From Pseudoxanthomonas koreensis (GTDB taxonomy: Bacteria; Pseudomonadota; Gammaproteobacteria; Xanthomonadales; Xanthomonadaceae), in contig NZ_PDWM01000013.1 in the NCBI RefSeq assembly GCF_010093225.1, forward strand, positions 1 through 64,000: DNA of 64,000 bases. The letters run 5' to 3'. The notes below the pieces were generated by a model. It was not told the DNA's origin, did no database searches, and worked only from the letters and a program-made list of their open reading frames with translations. Each line of letters begins with the position of its first letter. Position 1 is the first letter of the stretch. Below are positions 12,639 to 59,476 of this stretch, piece after piece. The position numbers were made by a program, and so were the translations under genes.

Positions 12639-13103
12639 TCAGGAACGCCGGGGAACCTGGCCGCGGTCGTCCTGCGCCTGCCCGGTGCCGGCAGCGCCAA
12701 GCGCCAGGAACGCCCAGAACGGCACTCCCGCGTCGGCCCACCAGTGCGAGGCTTCCTGCAGGATGCCGACCAGCGTCTCCAGTTCGTGCGGGCGGTTCGC
12801 CTGCAGTTGTCCGGCGGCCTCGAACAACAGTGCATAGCCCGGCGCCGGCAGCCATTCCAGGTCGCGCAGCGCGTCCATCAAGGCATCCCAGTTGCGGCCG
12901 CGGCCGCCCGGCAGGTCGAGCACGGTACCGATGCGCAGCAGCAGCGCCTGCTTGTCGCCGCAGCCGTCCAGGTCGATGCGCCGCAGCAGCAACCCCGCAT
13001 CGCGCGCGGCGGCGGCCAGCGCGGGCAGGTCGCCGACCTCGACCTCGAACACGCCGGCCTGGCTGGCGTCATCCAGGCCGATGTCGAATCCGGACTGGCT
13101 CAT
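12639..13103 (-). CDS. Barstar-family RNase inhibitor
   Basis: The 154-residue protein contains a barstar-like fold: an IDLDGCGDKQALLLRIGTVLDLP segment followed by RNWDALMDALRDLEWLP, the acidic helix region that plugs the barnase active site. About 25 residues longer than Bacillus barstar at each end. Its ATG overlaps the stop codon of the RNase gene (ATGA), so toxin and inhibitor are translated from one message. It should stay in the cytoplasm and protect the cell from unexported enzyme. Confidence 0.9.
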   Translation of the reverse strand: MSQSGFDIGLDDASQAGVFEVEVGDLPALAAAARDAGLLLRRIDLDGCGDKQALLLRIGTVLDLPGGRGRNWDALMDALRDLEWLPAPGYALLFEAAGQLQANRPHELETLVGILQEASHWWADAGVPFWAFLALGAAGTGQAQDDRGQVPRRS

Positions 13104-13570
13104 CGCAGCACTCCTGTCGCCGGCGGCTCGAAGGCGCGGAAGGTTTCGTAGTGGTCGGCGGTGTAGTACCACTCGCTGGGCGGATCGCCACCGGTGACGA
13201 TCCGGCGTGCGCCGCGGTGGCCCAGGCCTGGCGTGGGCACGGTGTACTCGCGGTACCAGCCATGCGCGCGCGTGGGCAGGCGGCGCTCGCGGTTGCCGAA
13301 CACGCTGCCGTCCTGTGCATGCGGGAGGCGCGTGCCGGTCTGGATCGCGCTGATGACCGCGGCGGCTTCCGCCGGGAGGAAGCCGGGCAGGGCCGCGGCT
13401 CGCGCGGGCACGCTGGCCTGTTGCGTTCCGTTGGCGGTCGGCGCAGGCGTTTGCGGCGCTGGTGCGCTCGGCAGCAGCAGCCAGGCGACCAGCAGCACCG
13501 CAACGATGGCGAGCAGCAGGCGCGGCAGCGCCCGGGAGCGGGGCTTCTGGTGGCGGGAGGGGCGCGACAT
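13100..13570 (-). CDS. Barnase-type guanyl-specific ribonuclease with N-terminal membrane anchor
   Basis: The 156-residue protein starts with a basic stretch and one hydrophobic segment (about 17-33), a signal peptide or anchor, then a Pro/Ala/Thr linker and a barnase/N1-T1 RNase domain: [49 protein letters not shown]. Catalytic residues of barnase map to Glu108, Arg122 or Arg123 and His140. It cuts RNA after G. First gene of a two-gene operon with barstar. Export suggests a role in nucleic-acid scavenging or killing competitors; which one cannot be told here. Confidence 0.92.
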
Positions 13571-54385: not shown

Positions 54386-54693
54386 CGGGCCTTCGGGTGA
54401 GCCGCCGGCCCCCGGATGGCGCGGTCCATGGTACGTCCGGCCGGGGATTGTGCGGCGTGACGGTGCGTCCCCGTTCCGCAACGCCGGATCGCCCGCGCAG
54501 GCGTATGCTGCGGGCGCCCACCCACGCCTTGGATATGGGCGTGCGGGACGCGGCAGAGCAGGGCGCCGGGACGCCGCCGACCGCCCGTACTCATGCCCGC
54601 GCCAGCGTCCTCGGTTAAAATGGCCGTTTATCGAAAGAACCGTCATGGCCGGGCCATGAAGGGCTTTCATTCTTGCTTCCGCATGGAGTGAAG

Positions 54694-55605
54694 ATGAAAC
54701 AGCCTTTCATTTCGCTGTGCCCGGAGATCACCCGGGCGGACGCGCTGACGCTGATGGACTGGCTGGAAGACGAGAGCGTCACCCGCCACCTGAGCGATTC
54801 GCGCGATGTCTCGCGATTCATCGGGCAGGCCATCAGCCGGGTGCAGTTGCCGATCCTGACCCCGCTTTTCAACCAGGGCGGCCGCTTCTTCATGGCCTAC
54901 GACCGGCATGACGCGCGGGTGGGTTTCGTGCGCCTGGTCAAGACCGGACCGGATTGCGAGATGGTCCTGGTGATCGGCGACCGCAACAACTGGGGCCGCC
55001 GGCTCGGCGCCGCCGCGATCCGCGAAGGCATGAAGCTCGCCTTCCTGGAGATGCGGGCCGAGAAGCTCATCGCCAGGATCCACCCGGACAACACGCGCTC
55101 GCTGAAGGCCTTCGAGCGCTGCGGGTTCCTGCCTGAAAGCCGGACGCCTGCGCTGGAGTCCTTCGCCATGACCTCCACGCGCTACCGCCGGTTCCTGCGC
55201 GAAAACCCCGCCGGCCATGCCACCGGCATCCACATCACCGAGATCGACAGGGACCGGCTCAGCAGCCTGCTCGCATTCGCCCAGGACCCGGGTGTTTTCG
55301 AGCTGGAGCACGAGATCGAGCGTGCCACCGTGGTCGACCCGGGGCAGGTGGCGGGCGATGTGGTCACGATGAATTCCAGGGCCCTGCTCAAGCTGGATGA
55401 CGAGGCCGTGGAAGTGACCCTGGTCTACCCGGAGGACGCGGACCGCAGTGCCGGGAAACTGTCGGTGTGCTCGGGCATCGGCACCGCGATCCTGGGCTAC
55501 AGGGAGGGCGATGCCCTCGACTGGCGGATGCCGGACCGGACCCGCCGTATCCGGATCGAGAAGGTGCTTTACCAGCCCGAAGCGGCCGGCAACTTCCACT
55601 TGTAG
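54694..55605 (+). CDS. GNAT acetyltransferase fused to a Rnk/GreA-C-type domain
   Basis: The 303-residue protein joins two folds. Residues 1-170 are GNAT: a RimJ/RimL-like N-terminus, NNWGRRLGAAAIREGMKLA (acetyl-CoA loop, 99-117) and NTRSLKAFERCGF (133-145). Residues 179-303 resemble Rnk and the GreA/GreB C domain: EIDRDRLSSLL, VVTMNSRALLKL, VEVTLVYPEDAD, ISVCSGIGTAILGYREGD-like text and the end YQPEAAGNFHL. Rnk-type proteins bind the RNA-polymerase secondary channel or affect nucleoside-diphosphate kinase. The fusion implies an acetyltransferase brought to RNA polymerase; that is inference. ATG 54694 follows GGAGTGAAG. Confidence 0.85.
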   Translation: MKQPFISLCPEITRADALTLMDWLEDESVTRHLSDSRDVSRFIGQAISRVQLPILTPLFNQGGRFFMAYDRHDARVGFVRLVKTGPDCEMVLVIGDRNNWGRRLGAAAIREGMKLAFLEMRAEKLIARIHPDNTRSLKAFERCGFLPESRTPALESFAMTSTRYRRFLRENPAGHATGIHITEIDRDRLSSLLAFAQDPGVFELEHEIERATVVDPGQVAGDVVTMNSRALLKLDDEAVEVTLVYPEDADRSAGKLSVCSGIGTAILGYREGDALDWRMPDRTRRIRIEKVLYQPEAAGNFHL

Positions 55606-55651: not shown

Positions 55652-56089
55652 TCAGAGGGAGCGTGACAACTTTCCCTTCAGGCGCAGTCCGTCCCTCATG
55701 TTCAGGCCGAGCAGGCAGATGTTTGCAGCTCCAGCGACGAGCTCCAGGCCTTGGACCGCGTAGAAGATGCTGTCCAGTTCACCGTTGGCAGCTTTCCATG
55801 CGAGGAACAGCGCCGACGGAACAAGGAGCAGAATGCCATTTGCGGCAATGAATGGCATACGTCTCGCCTTCTTTCCGACAAGTCCACCGCGTGCTTTTCC
55901 GGCCAGCTTGAACCCTGATCCACCTGCTGCGGCAAGTGCTGGAATCAGGAGCAGGAAACCCCAGGGGATGCTTGTCTTCACTACCGTTACCGCATGCTCG
56001 GAGAGAAACAGTTCGGATACTGCGGTCGATATCCAGAATGTCGCGATGGTGAGCAGGGCGATCGCGCCTGCAAGCGGGTGGATGATCAT
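55652..56089 (-). CDS. Small membrane protein divergent from a MarR regulator
   Basis: The 145-residue protein has four predicted TM segments (about 4-22, 36-56, 75-94, 107-127). MIIHPLAGAIALLTIATFW and the RMPFIAANGILLLVPSALFLAW block suggest a small integral membrane protein; I do not recognise the family. G+C is lower than the surroundings. It is divergent from the MarR gene across two strong operators, so it is the likely target. Confidence 0.75.
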   Translation of the reverse strand: MIIHPLAGAIALLTIATFWISTAVSELFLSEHAVTVVKTSIPWGFLLLIPALAAAGGSGFKLAGKARGGLVGKKARRMPFIAANGILLLVPSALFLAWKAANGELDSIFYAVQGLELVAGAANICLLGLNMRDGLRLKGKLSRSL

Positions 56090-56109
56090 GAGCACGACGC
56101 ACCTCACAT

Positions 56110-56168
56110 GACAACATGTTGTCGATGTGCCAATGTATAGCACGCCAGAATTGACAACACAATGTCAA
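56110..56168. promoter_or_regulatory. Two palindromic operators between membrane protein and MarR genes
   Basis: GACAACATGTTGTC (56110-56123) is a perfect palindrome; TTGACA and TGTCAA (56151-56168) are an inverted repeat with 6 bases between. Both half-sites share the core TTGNCA. The second overlaps a TTGACA -35 for the MarR gene with AATATG about 18 bases on. Autoregulation by the MarR protein is likely. Confidence 0.75.
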
Positions 56169-56188: not shown

Positions 56189-56656
56189 ATGAGCGCCACC
56201 CGTGCAAGTCCTTCAGGCCAGGCACTGACCGACCTGATCCTCACCATGTTCCGGGTCAACAACCGCACCCTCAACTGGGGGGACCGGTTGGTGGCCCCGC
56301 TGGGGCTGACGAGCGCCCGCTGGCAGGTCCTGGGGGCTATCGCTTTCGCCGACCAGCCCCGGCCCGTAGCGTGGCTGGCGCGCGACCTTGGTGCCAGCCG
56401 CCAGAACGTGCAACGGATCGTCAATGACCTGTTGCGGGACGGGATGGTCGAGTTCCAACCCAATCCCCATCACCGGCGGGCACAGCTGGTGGTCATGACA
56501 AAAAAGGGGCGTCGGACCTACGAGACCGTGGTCGACATGTACTACTCGAAGGTCGATGACCTTGCGGAAGGTCTCTCCGGGAACGACATACGCATCGCCC
56601 ATCACGTGCTGAGGACGTTGCAGGGGCGGTTGGAGAAGTCTGAAGGGGAAGGATGA
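56189..56656 (+). CDS. MarR-family transcriptional regulator
   Basis: The 155-residue protein has a winged helix-turn-helix (LTSARWQVLGAIAFAD, WLARDLGASRQNVQRIVNDLLRDGMVEFQPNPHHRRAQLVVMTKKG across 40-112) and flanking dimerisation helices. DPH-type text (NPHHRRAQL) is the wing of MarR proteins. It probably binds the two palindromes in its own promoter and represses the divergent membrane protein gene. Ligand unknown. Confidence 0.9.
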   Translation: MSATRASPSGQALTDLILTMFRVNNRTLNWGDRLVAPLGLTSARWQVLGAIAFADQPRPVAWLARDLGASRQNVQRIVNDLLRDGMVEFQPNPHHRRAQLVVMTKKGRRTYETVVDMYYSKVDDLAEGLSGNDIRIAHHVLRTLQGRLEKSEGEG

Positions 56657-57180: not shown

Positions 57181-57927
57181 ATGAATCAACGTTCAGCGAG
57201 TTCCACGGCGGCCTTGATCCTGCTTTTAACGTGCTTGGCAGCACCCGGAGTCGTACAGGCGGAGGCTTGGTCATGGGCCGTGGAGCCCTATGCTTGGGCG
57301 TCCAGCATCCGGGCCGACCTGCGGACTGAAGTGCCGCCGATAGAGGGCTCCTCTGAGCTCCGGTTCCGCGACATCCTGGACAAGCTCGACGGGTCGCTGC
57401 AGCTGCACGTAGAGGGCGGGCTGCAGCGACATGGCCTGTTCCTCGACTTCAGCTATCTCGGGATCTCAGACCGGGTGTCGCGCAACTTCGCCGACTACGA
57501 GGCCGACCTCGACACCCGCCTGTTCGAGGCCGCCTGGGTCTGGTCGCCATCGGGCAGGCGCCTGGAGGCGCTCGACCTGTTCGCGGGCGTGCGCTACCTC
57601 GACGCCGACATCAGCCTGCGCATCGATCCAGTCAATCCGGAGCTTGTCGGACGCACGCTCGACGTCGGCGACAGCTACCTCGACGCCATGCTGGGCGCAC
57701 GGTACACCTGGCCTCTGGGTCCGAAGTGGCGCGTGACCGCGCGCGGTGACGGTTCCTTCGGCGACACCGAGGGCGCGTGGAACGCTAGCCTCGGTGCCCG
57801 GTACCACACGTCGAATGGGGCCTGGGTGTTCGGCTACCGCCACCTGCGAATCGAGATCGAGAGCGGCGGCGCCGACGTCGACCTGACTATGAGCGGTCCG
57901 TTTGCCGGCTATGCCTTCGTGTTCTGA
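57181..57927 (+). CDS. Outer-membrane beta-barrel protein
   Basis: The 248-residue protein has a signal peptide (ALILLLTCLAAPGVVQAEA) and alternating beta-strands ending in Phe (GPFAGYAFVF), a barrel of about 8-10 strands. AWSWAVEPYAWASSIRADL and LFAGVRYLDADISL resemble small uncharacterised outer-membrane proteins. It is the first gene of the DUF1254/sulfatase row. Function unknown. Confidence 0.8.
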   Translation: MNQRSASSTAALILLLTCLAAPGVVQAEAWSWAVEPYAWASSIRADLRTEVPPIEGSSELRFRDILDKLDGSLQLHVEGGLQRHGLFLDFSYLGISDRVSRNFADYEADLDTRLFEAAWVWSPSGRRLEALDLFAGVRYLDADISLRIDPVNPELVGRTLDVGDSYLDAMLGARYTWPLGPKWRVTARGDGSFGDTEGAWNASLGARYHTSNGAWVFGYRHLRIEIESGGADVDLTMSGPFAGYAFVF

Positions 57928-57985
57928 GCGGGCGGGCGTCGTTGCGGGCGGGCTGGCAAACACGGAAGCAGGAGCGCAAACCCAT

Positions 57986-59476
57986 ATGGAAAAGAACATA
58001 TACCGGCGAGATTGCCGCAGCACCGTATCAGCCCCGCGCCGTCGCGGAGCCTTCGGCCGCGCATCGCTGTGCGTCCTCCTCGTCCTGGCCGGCGCGTTGG
58101 CCGGGTGCGGAAGTGGCACCGGCAGTGGCGGCGGCGACGCCGCACCGGCGGCCGCGGCGCAGCCGTCGCCCGAGGTGTTCAGGGACGCCTACGTGTACGG
58201 CTATCCCATGGTCGACAACTACCGGGTGATGCACTCGTACTTCGCCGACTCCGACAACCCCGAGTACAAGGGCCCGTGGAACCAGGTGCACAACATCGCG
58301 CGGGTCTACACGCCCGAGGACAAGGCCATCCAGACGCCGAACTCGGATACGCCGTACTCGTTCCTCGGCGCCGACCTGCGCCGTGAACCGCTGGTCATCA
58401 GCGTTCCGGGAGTGGCCGGTGGCCGCTACTACTCGCTGCAGTTCATCGATCTGTACACGCACAACTTTGCCTACGTCGGCAGCCGTGCGACGGGCAACGG
58501 CGCCGGCAGCTACCTGTTGGCCGGGCCGGGCTGGGACGGCGAGGCACCGGAGGGGATCCGCTCGGTGCTGCGCTCGGAGACCGACCTCGCCTTGGTGCTG
58601 TACCGCACCCAGCTCTTCAGCAACGACGACCTTCCCGAGGTCGAGAAGATCCAGGCCGGCTTCACGGTGCAGCCGCTCTCCGCCTTCACGGGGACCGCGC
58701 CGCCGCAGGCCTTGGGCACAGAGTTCATGCGGCCGCTGGGCGTGGATGCGCAGAAGTCGTCGGCCGAGTTCTTCGACGTGCTGGCGTACCTGTTCCAGTT
58801 CGCGCCCGTCCATCCCGGCGAGGTGGACGTGCGGAGCCGCTTCGAGGAAGCGGGCATCTCCCCCGGGCGCCCGTTCGCATCGGCGCTGGATGCGCAGGGC
58901 CGGGAGGCGGTCGAAGCCGGCATCGCGGATGCCTGGGACGACTTCAACGCCTACAAGGCCGAGATGGTCGACACCGGCAAGCGCAGCGCGGCGGACGGGT
59001 TCGGCACGCGCGAGTTCCTCGGCAACGACTACATGGCGCGGATGTCATCCGCCGTGCTCGGCATCTACGGCAACTCCAAGGAGGAGGCGCTGTACCCCGC
59101 CTACTTCGTGGACGCAGACGGCGCGCCGATGGACGGTTCGCGCAACCGCTACGCCGTCCGCTTCGGGCCGGACGGGCTGCCTCCGGTGAACGCCTTCTGG
59201 TCGCTCACCATGTACGAGCTCCCGGCCAGCCTGCTGACCGCGAACCCCATCGATCGCTACCTGATCAACTCCACGATGCTGGCCGACCTGGTCCGCGACC
59301 CGGACGGCGGCATCACCATCCACGTCCAGAAGGAATCACCGGGCGCGGCCAGGGAAGCGAACTGGCTGCCCGCGCCGGATGGCCCGTTCTTCATGATCCT
59401 GCGCGCCTACTGGCCGGACGGGGACATGCTCGATGGGACCTGGAAGCAGCCGGCCGCGGTGCGCGTCGAGGAATGA
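57986..59476 (+). CDS. DUF1254/DUF1214-domain lipoprotein, long form
   Basis: The 496-residue protein has a lipobox (LAGALAGCGS). The DUF1254 half begins FRDAYVYGYPMVDNYRVMH and includes QTPNSDTPYSFLGADLRREPLVISVPG; the DUF1214 half has NRYAVRFGPDGLPPVNAFWSLTMYEL and ends ILRAYWPDGDMLDGTWKQPAAVRV. Such proteins are exported and often sit with sulfatases or steroid/lipid genes, but no reaction is established. ATG 57986 gives the signal; RBS AGGAG about 12 bases upstream. Confidence 0.88.
   Translation: MEKNIYRRDCRSTVSAPRRRGAFGRASLCVLLVLAGALAGCGSGTGSGGGDAAPAAAAQPSPEVFRDAYVYGYPMVDNYRVMHSYFADSDNPEYKGPWNQVHNIARVYTPEDKAIQTPNSDTPYSFLGADLRREPLVISVPGVAGGRYYSLQFIDLYTHNFAYVGSRATGNGAGSYLLAGPGWDGEAPEGIRSVLRSETDLALVLYRTQLFSNDDLPEVEKIQAGFTVQPLSAFTGTAPPQALGTEFMRPLGVDAQKSSAEFFDVLAYLFQFAPVHPGEVDVRSRFEEAGISPGRPFASALDAQGREAVEAGIADAWDDFNAYKAEMVDTGKRSAADGFGTREFLGNDYMARMSSAVLGIYGNSKEEALYPAYFVDADGAPMDGSRNRYAVRFGPDGLPPVNAFWSLTMYELPASLLTANPIDRYLINSTMLADLVRDPDGGITIHVQKESPGAAREANWLPAPDGPFFMILRAYWPDGDMLDGTWKQPAAVRVEE

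Follow-up and report, generated by a model that had tools for sequence, protein, structure and literature searches.

The window analysed here, a stretch of 64,000 nucleotides from Pseudoxanthomonas koreensis (contig NZ_PDWM01000013.1), carries on its plus strand an uninterrupted frame of 303 codons that runs from the ATG at 54694 to the TAG at 55603-55605. The first-pass annotation had read this frame as a GNAT acetyltransferase fused within one gene to an Rnk/GreA-C-like domain, and the reading was borne out, as the frame is intact and all three Pfam domains score above their cut-offs. The gene and its two halves are as follows.

54694..55605, plus strand: GNAT-Rnk fusion gene, 303 amino acids (open frame and Pfam; 79 full-length relatives among the best 80 kept)
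54694..55209, plus strand: GNAT half, residues 1-172 (Acetyltransf_3; predicted model with pLDDT 83)
55228..55572, plus strand: Rnk half (Rnk_N plus GreA_GreB_C), residues 179-293 (Pfam; matches to 2pn0 and 3bmb)

The two halves of the fusion protein

A RimJ/RimL-like GNAT had been proposed for residues 1-170, and the GNAT assignment holds both by Acetyltransf_3, found at residues 12-145 (E 8e-15; 56.1 bits vs. a curated cut-off of 25.4), and by the fold matches of the predicted model. Sequence comparison of this half with solved GNATs gave weak matches (best E 0.004). The nearest solved folds to the model are tied: spermidine N-acetyltransferase SpeG (Z 17.9 over 155 residues) and AAC(6')-Ib (Z 17.8 over 153 residues), from which the GNAT half differs in that they share only 17-18% identity with it. 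No SpeG model was among the NCBIfam matches of the fusion protein, and the AAC(6') NCBIfam models reached at most 17.8 bits vs. cut-offs of 260-450. The acetyl-CoA loop motif of GNATs is R/Q-x-x-G-x-G/A; across 70 sequences W100, R102 and G105 are invariant, and position 107 is A in the window and S in the consensus. Structure prediction, which the first-pass annotation had named as a check, gave a model with GNATs as nearest folds for the GNAT half and, for the full-length protein, a poor model (pLDDT 60.5) that is not usable for domain arrangement.

The C-terminal half contains Rnk_N (residues 179-214, E 7e-8) followed by GreA_GreB (residues 222-293, E 1e-14), both above the curated cut-offs and in the order expected of Rnk. 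Its assignment as Rnk-type was upheld by the matches to 2pn0 (E 8e-24) and to E. coli Rnk, 3bmb (E 3e-18), which have the same Rnk_N and GreA_GreB_C domains and a QPEAAG-type ending; the YQPEAAG ending is also present in 3bmb. The fusion differs from Rnk in having a GNAT in front, in staying below the 109-bit cut-off of the NCBIfam Rnk equivalog NF004396 (103.6 bits for the whole protein and 106.6 for the half alone), and in a three-residue gap in the N-terminal coil region when aligned with the solved structures. With GreA, GreB and Gfh1 it shares the C-terminal domain (Gfh1 2eul, E 4e-4), but the GreA and GreB models score below cut-off and the fusion has only the short Rnk-type N-terminal part. 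Apart from the fusion, the genome of the window carries an Rnk-like gene on its own (G000:C52:2752-3261, 38% identity). Both halves are strongly constrained in the full-length relatives, with a mean column identity of 84% in 51 aligned sequences. Such proteins probably carry the NCBI pipeline name 'bifunctional GNAT family N-acetyltransferase/nucleoside diphosphate kinase regulator'.

Distribution and spread of the fusion gene

A species-wide scan with one genome per species yielded 221 candidate stretches, 189 of which were relatives, and the best 80 were kept. The encoded protein is full-length in 79 of these 80 loci (start at residue 1, end at 302 or 303), is 74-88% identical and has no stops in translation, which excludes a sequencing frameshift as the origin of the layout; the exception is L077, with a coverage of 34-303. 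Burkholderiales and Rhodocyclales-type betaproteobacteria make up most of the hosts, together with Pseudomonas, and a few are Lysobacteraceae. Within Pseudoxanthomonas the fusion was found in 2 of 17 genomes (a copy in G010, congeneric with the window genome, is 88% identical), and the Rnk half was matched in 16 of 17, one match being partial. The fusion was present in 2 of 99 genomes at the family level, in 3 of 369 in the class sample and, at 69% and 60% identity, in 2 of 349 genomes of the order of G320. The remaining matches to the Rnk half alone in the family, class and G320-order samples were at most 52% identical, and those to the GNAT half alone in the family sample were weak (about 30-42% over short stretches). 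The fusion family is therefore sporadic in its distribution. As to the earlier statement that no described protein of this layout was known, we found no paper describing a GNAT-Rnk layout in the open-licence literature, where searches on the leader and on acetylation gave nothing either; the layout itself is not unique, being common to many species. The parts are of known kinds, and their combination is a family for which no description was found in that literature.

In a tree of 82 sequences, all ten Pseudomonas copies included nest inside Achromobacter, and four Pigmentiphaga copies fall in two separate places; this placement argues for horizontal transfer of the fusion gene. The DNA that the window has in common with its Lysobacteraceae relatives (L020, L021, L024 and L077) consists of the gene and about 80-100 nt upstream of it; as an exception, L020 (P. 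daejeonensis) also has, close by, a frame related to 57902-59476 of the window (two stretches of 250-400 nt, 69-74%). The similarity ends at the stop codon or a few bases from it, and no recombination site 3' of the gene was recognised by eye at this point. Among the 154 matching records of the plasmid collection none covered 80% of the protein, and the phage collection gave no match beyond one partial GNAT match. Positions 12728-13222 of the human-faecal phage record MT836484.1 encode a protein related only to the GNAT half (residues 11-173; 33% identity, 102 bits), and this protein outscores every separate GNAT in the family search (<30 bits). L126 (IMGVR_UViG_3300002220_006786) has the leader described below and the fusion gene at 272-1215, at one end of a 12-kb contig, the frame being apparently interrupted near its start; this contig also has frames resembling, by eye, a phage integrase, a DnaB-type helicase and a tape-measure protein, and its bases 213-1269 alone match the Thiobacillus loci L026 and L035.

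A conserved operon or partner gene was considered and rejected, as the top neighbour cluster, with frames overlapping the fusion gene left out, occurred in at most 11 of 80 loci. Neighbouring frames were chosen mechanically by length from 63 loci (7 of the 126 listed frames were left out), and Pfam matches to these 119 frames comprised 121 families, none of them in more than three members. In the window, the fusion gene is followed by a 163-aa minus-strand frame (55652-56143) that looks, by eye, like a membrane protein, and then by a MarR-type-looking frame (56189-56656). In two copies without the leader, three consecutive tyrosine-recombinase-like frames (by eye) lie near the fusion gene (L089:900-4200), and transposase-like frames (by eye) flank it on an Aromatoleum plasmid (L060). 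In the leaderless L053, L060 and L090 the fusion gene has, some 50-70 nt before it, a neighbour gene that also occurs near L058 and L062 (5 of 80 loci in total). About 2.5 kb upstream of the leaderless fusion gene of L062 is a separate Rnk-like gene (2093-2515), followed by a universal-stress-protein-like gene (by eye).

A conserved leader RNA precedes the fusion gene

The conserved unit starts upstream of the coding sequence, about 80-100 nt before the ATG, a part of the locus that the first-pass annotation had overlooked. After the probable -10 box come CGAAAGAACCGTCATGGCC and GGCCATGAARGGCTTTCAT, with a short loop between them, and then, beyond a stretch that varies, GGTGAAG and the ATG. 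Its features in the window are listed here.

54616..54621, plus strand: TAAAAT, probable -10 box (by sequence)
54632..54693, plus strand: conserved leader RNA, beginning with CGAAAGAACCG and ending just before the ATG (model R1, 63 positions; in 75 of 81 full-length loci)
54633..54668, plus strand: 5' hairpin (pairing in 98.0% of cells; two-sided changes at 3 pairs of the upper stem and at none of the lower)
54633-54637 with 54664-54668, plus strand: lower stem of the hairpin, GAAAG/CTTTC (hardly varies)
54638-54642, plus strand: invariant AACCG within the 5' hairpin
54643-54649 with 54653-54659, plus strand: upper stem of the hairpin, TCATGGC/GCCATGA (carries all two-sided changes)
54656..54666, plus strand: leader strand of the duplex, ATGAAGGGCTT (in the window, 10 of its 11 positions pair with 54700-54710, one of these as G-U)
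54700..54710, plus strand: coding strand of the duplex, codons 3-6, CAG CCT TTC AT (all 75 leader-bearing genes have CCT for Pro4)

When the 81 full-length genes were aligned over their upstream DNA, 75 of them proved to share the leader. Six genes lack it: L044 and L062, which are sisters in the tree, and L053, L060, L089 and L090, which make up a single group there. In the leader-bearing genes a TAAAAT-like hexamer occupies positions -23 to -18 relative to AACCG, its columns being conserved at 64-88%, and no -35 hexamer is conserved. Comparison within 68 genes of 909 nt (2278 pairs) gave a mean pairwise identity of 88% for leader columns 2-50 vs. 62% at the fourfold-degenerate sites of the same genes. 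This indicates that the leader is held by selection and that recent descent alone is insufficient to account for its conservation. The leaders of L094, L096 and L099 (Pseudomonas protegens and P. karstica) change together, their lower stem being altered or partly lost, and have GTTAAG in place of GTGAAG before the ATG.

Rfam 15 contains no family matching the leader (the best hit was a Giardia snoRNA at 15.9 bits vs. a gathering score of 100), and an Rfam search of five loci with relatives detected tRNA elsewhere and nothing at the leader. As far as Rfam 15 goes, the leader is a conserved RNA without a description. The covariance model of the leader was run on sets of 369, 349, 29 and 200 whole genomes, which overlap, and weak copies may be missed in the runs on more than 40 genomes, for which stricter filters apply. 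All 35 strong matches fetched (E of at most 1.5e-8; a few places are represented twice) directly precede the fusion gene, which is not downstream of the five weak matches fetched (E 0.006 to 0.3). In the class sample the leader was detected in 3 of 369 genomes, exactly the three with the fusion. The 349 genomes of the G320 order gave two strong matches, both with the fusion, and two weak ones. One strong match each was present in 27 of the 29 fusion-bearing genomes searched, the other two being those of the leaderless L062 and L089, and the family of G844 had the leader in 9 of 200 genomes. No case of the leader before any other gene was found in the class, G320-order, fusion-bearing and G844-family genome sets; as far as searched, the motif is tied to the fusion gene.

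Two predicted pairings of one strand of the leader

The leader strand AUGAARGGCUU is able to pair with codons 3-6 of the fusion gene, thereby enclosing the ribosome-binding site and the start codon. Among 73 distinct sequences, 98.6% of the 803 cells of this duplex pair and 11 do not; no two-sided changes occur in them. Counting transitions only (transversions were not counted), and with sites uncorrected for shared ancestry, 9 of 12 wobble-tolerant sites vary vs. 1 of 10 pair-breaking ones (one-sided Fisher test, p 0.0035). In that test the tie case T98, a change of the divergent relative (G645) that faces A there, was taken as tolerant; when recounted as breaking, the figures are 8 of 11 vs. 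2 of 11 (p 0.015). Folding of the leader with 24 coding bases gave the duplex a mean probability of 0.65 (at least 0.5 in 66 of 75 sequences) and, at 37°C, an unpaired fraction of 17% for the ribosome site with the AUG. The ribosome site is thus predicted by folding to be hidden in most sequences.

Every leader-bearing gene uses CCT for Pro4, whereas at six other conserved prolines this codon occurs in 2-21 of 65-68 genes. Of the six genes that lack the leader, three have CCT and three have CCC as codon 4, and none has AAG as codon 3. The T of CCT faces a G in 39 of 75 leaders, where CCC would pair at least equally and yet is absent; pairing alone therefore does not explain the invariant CCT. 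In the most divergent relative (G645), CCC opposite A is a mismatch. Among synonymous shuffles the observed complementarity ranks only moderately high (median 13 of 100; 5 or better in 21 of 75).

The 5' hairpin is formed by the pairings GAAAG/CUUUC, CC/GG and UCAUGGC/GCCAUGA. Two-sided changes were observed at pairs 12-36, 15-33 and 16-32 (columns of A2), a number of pairs reached in 11 of 500 shuffles, and comprise 7 cells vs. 1.0 in shuffles (0 of 500 shuffles). By our own count on the tree they represent about five events (L028/L043; L059; L071/L080; L081; L049). These changes suggest modest covariation support for the hairpin. The lower stem never covaries and, since it hardly varies, is uninformative on pairing. 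The wobble-tolerance test revealed no bias in the hairpin (7 of 14 vs. 7 of 14). The mean predicted probability of its lower part is 0.03, which implies that the free state is not favoured without help.

As the hairpin and the duplex use one strand, they would compete. What bears on a bistable leader is, for the hairpin, the three two-sided pairs and, for the duplex, the wobble bias at either p value together with zero two-sided changes. An initial switch idea, in which the 3' stem strand pairs with the ribosome-binding site, was set aside, as invariance was found for it and no further support. The predicted arrangement of a ribosome site in a duplex with a competing hairpin upstream would resemble, in outline, that of riboswitches and ribosomal-protein leaders, from which this leader differs in having no Rfam match and in that its strong matches precede one gene family only.

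Proposed mechanism and alternative explanations

In PMC4598747, E. coli Rnk is described as an RNA-polymerase-binding factor of unknown function that competes with Gre factors and DksA, has a coil too short for the active centre, and can be deleted without a phenotype in normal growth. By analogy, docking of the Rnk half of the fusion at the secondary channel of RNA polymerase is a fair inference, and the short coil of E. coli Rnk together with the three-residue gap in the fusion would make docking, and not action at the active centre, the natural role. Acetylation coupled to the transcription machinery, as suggested by the first-pass annotation, may go with such docking. The frame, the domains, the conservation, the place of all fetched strong motif matches before this gene and the wobble pattern are observed, and docking, catalysis, substrate, switching and trigger are inferred. 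On our reading, to which we assign a probability of about 0.45, the locus would encode an acetyltransferase that docks on RNA polymerase and whose translation is held off by a bistable leader. The locus would be complete in itself, with a single promoter, a single leader RNA and a single gene. The short-coil Rnk module would tether the GNAT to the polymerase secondary channel, short of the active centre, and the GNAT, held outside the channel mouth, might acetylate the polymerase, a bound factor or a nearby small amine. Control would be exerted at translation: by default, the duplex of AUGAARGGCUU with codons 3-6 would trap the ribosome-binding site and the start codon, and both would be freed when the 5' hairpin takes the same strand. 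The trigger of the hairpin could be a protein or a ligand, perhaps the fusion protein itself, acting on the invariant AACCG core, which is likely to be the contact for the activator. No strong copy of the leader was found before another gene, which would make self-regulation, or a response to the substrate of the enzyme, likelier than a general signal.

The protein could also be seen as an ordinary small-amine acetyltransferase of polyamine- or aminoglycoside-like type, with an allosteric, oligomerising or anti-Gre Rnk half and no transcription target. We regard this as unlikely, though as the most serious of the alternatives: SpeG and AAC(6')-Ib as the tied nearest folds agree with it, as do the lack of widely shared partner genes and a spread like that of an accessory trait, but a common GNAT fold does not give the substrate, the AAC(6') models are far under their cut-offs, and both halves of the protein are under strong constraint. 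The leader, for its part, might be a DNA operator for a transcription factor and not an RNA element. The near-palindromes CATGGCC..GGCCATG and ATGAAAGGCTTTCAT fit an operator, and invariant blocks such as AACCG and GGCTT are equally expected of a binding site. This explanation is nevertheless improbable, as the element lies downstream of the likely -10 box, the invariant CCT sits within the coding sequence, and the changes in the duplex keep G-U pairs, which are meaningful in RNA and break the symmetry in DNA. Least credible, and very improbable, is a short regulatory peptide encoded by the leader (ATG AAR GGC TTT CAT ...): its ATG is in place in 69 of 76 sequences, but the start is GTG or CTG in the other seven, GGC, TTT and CAT are nearly fixed at synonymous positions, and the downstream frame is open in the Achromobacter group and meets an immediate stop in others.

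We thus prefer the polymerase-docked acetyltransferase under a bistable leader. A bolder version of it, which we consider doubtful, is that the leader represents a new bistable regulatory RNA class that senses a metabolite or the transcription state and releases a polymerase-docked acetyltransferase that modifies the polymerase or secondary-channel factors, the whole being a 1-kb unit carried between beta- and gammaproteobacteria. An Rnk welded to an enzyme and provided with a dedicated leader RNA would offer a possible purpose for Rnk-type docking, and the trigger of the leader would tell what the enzyme responds to.
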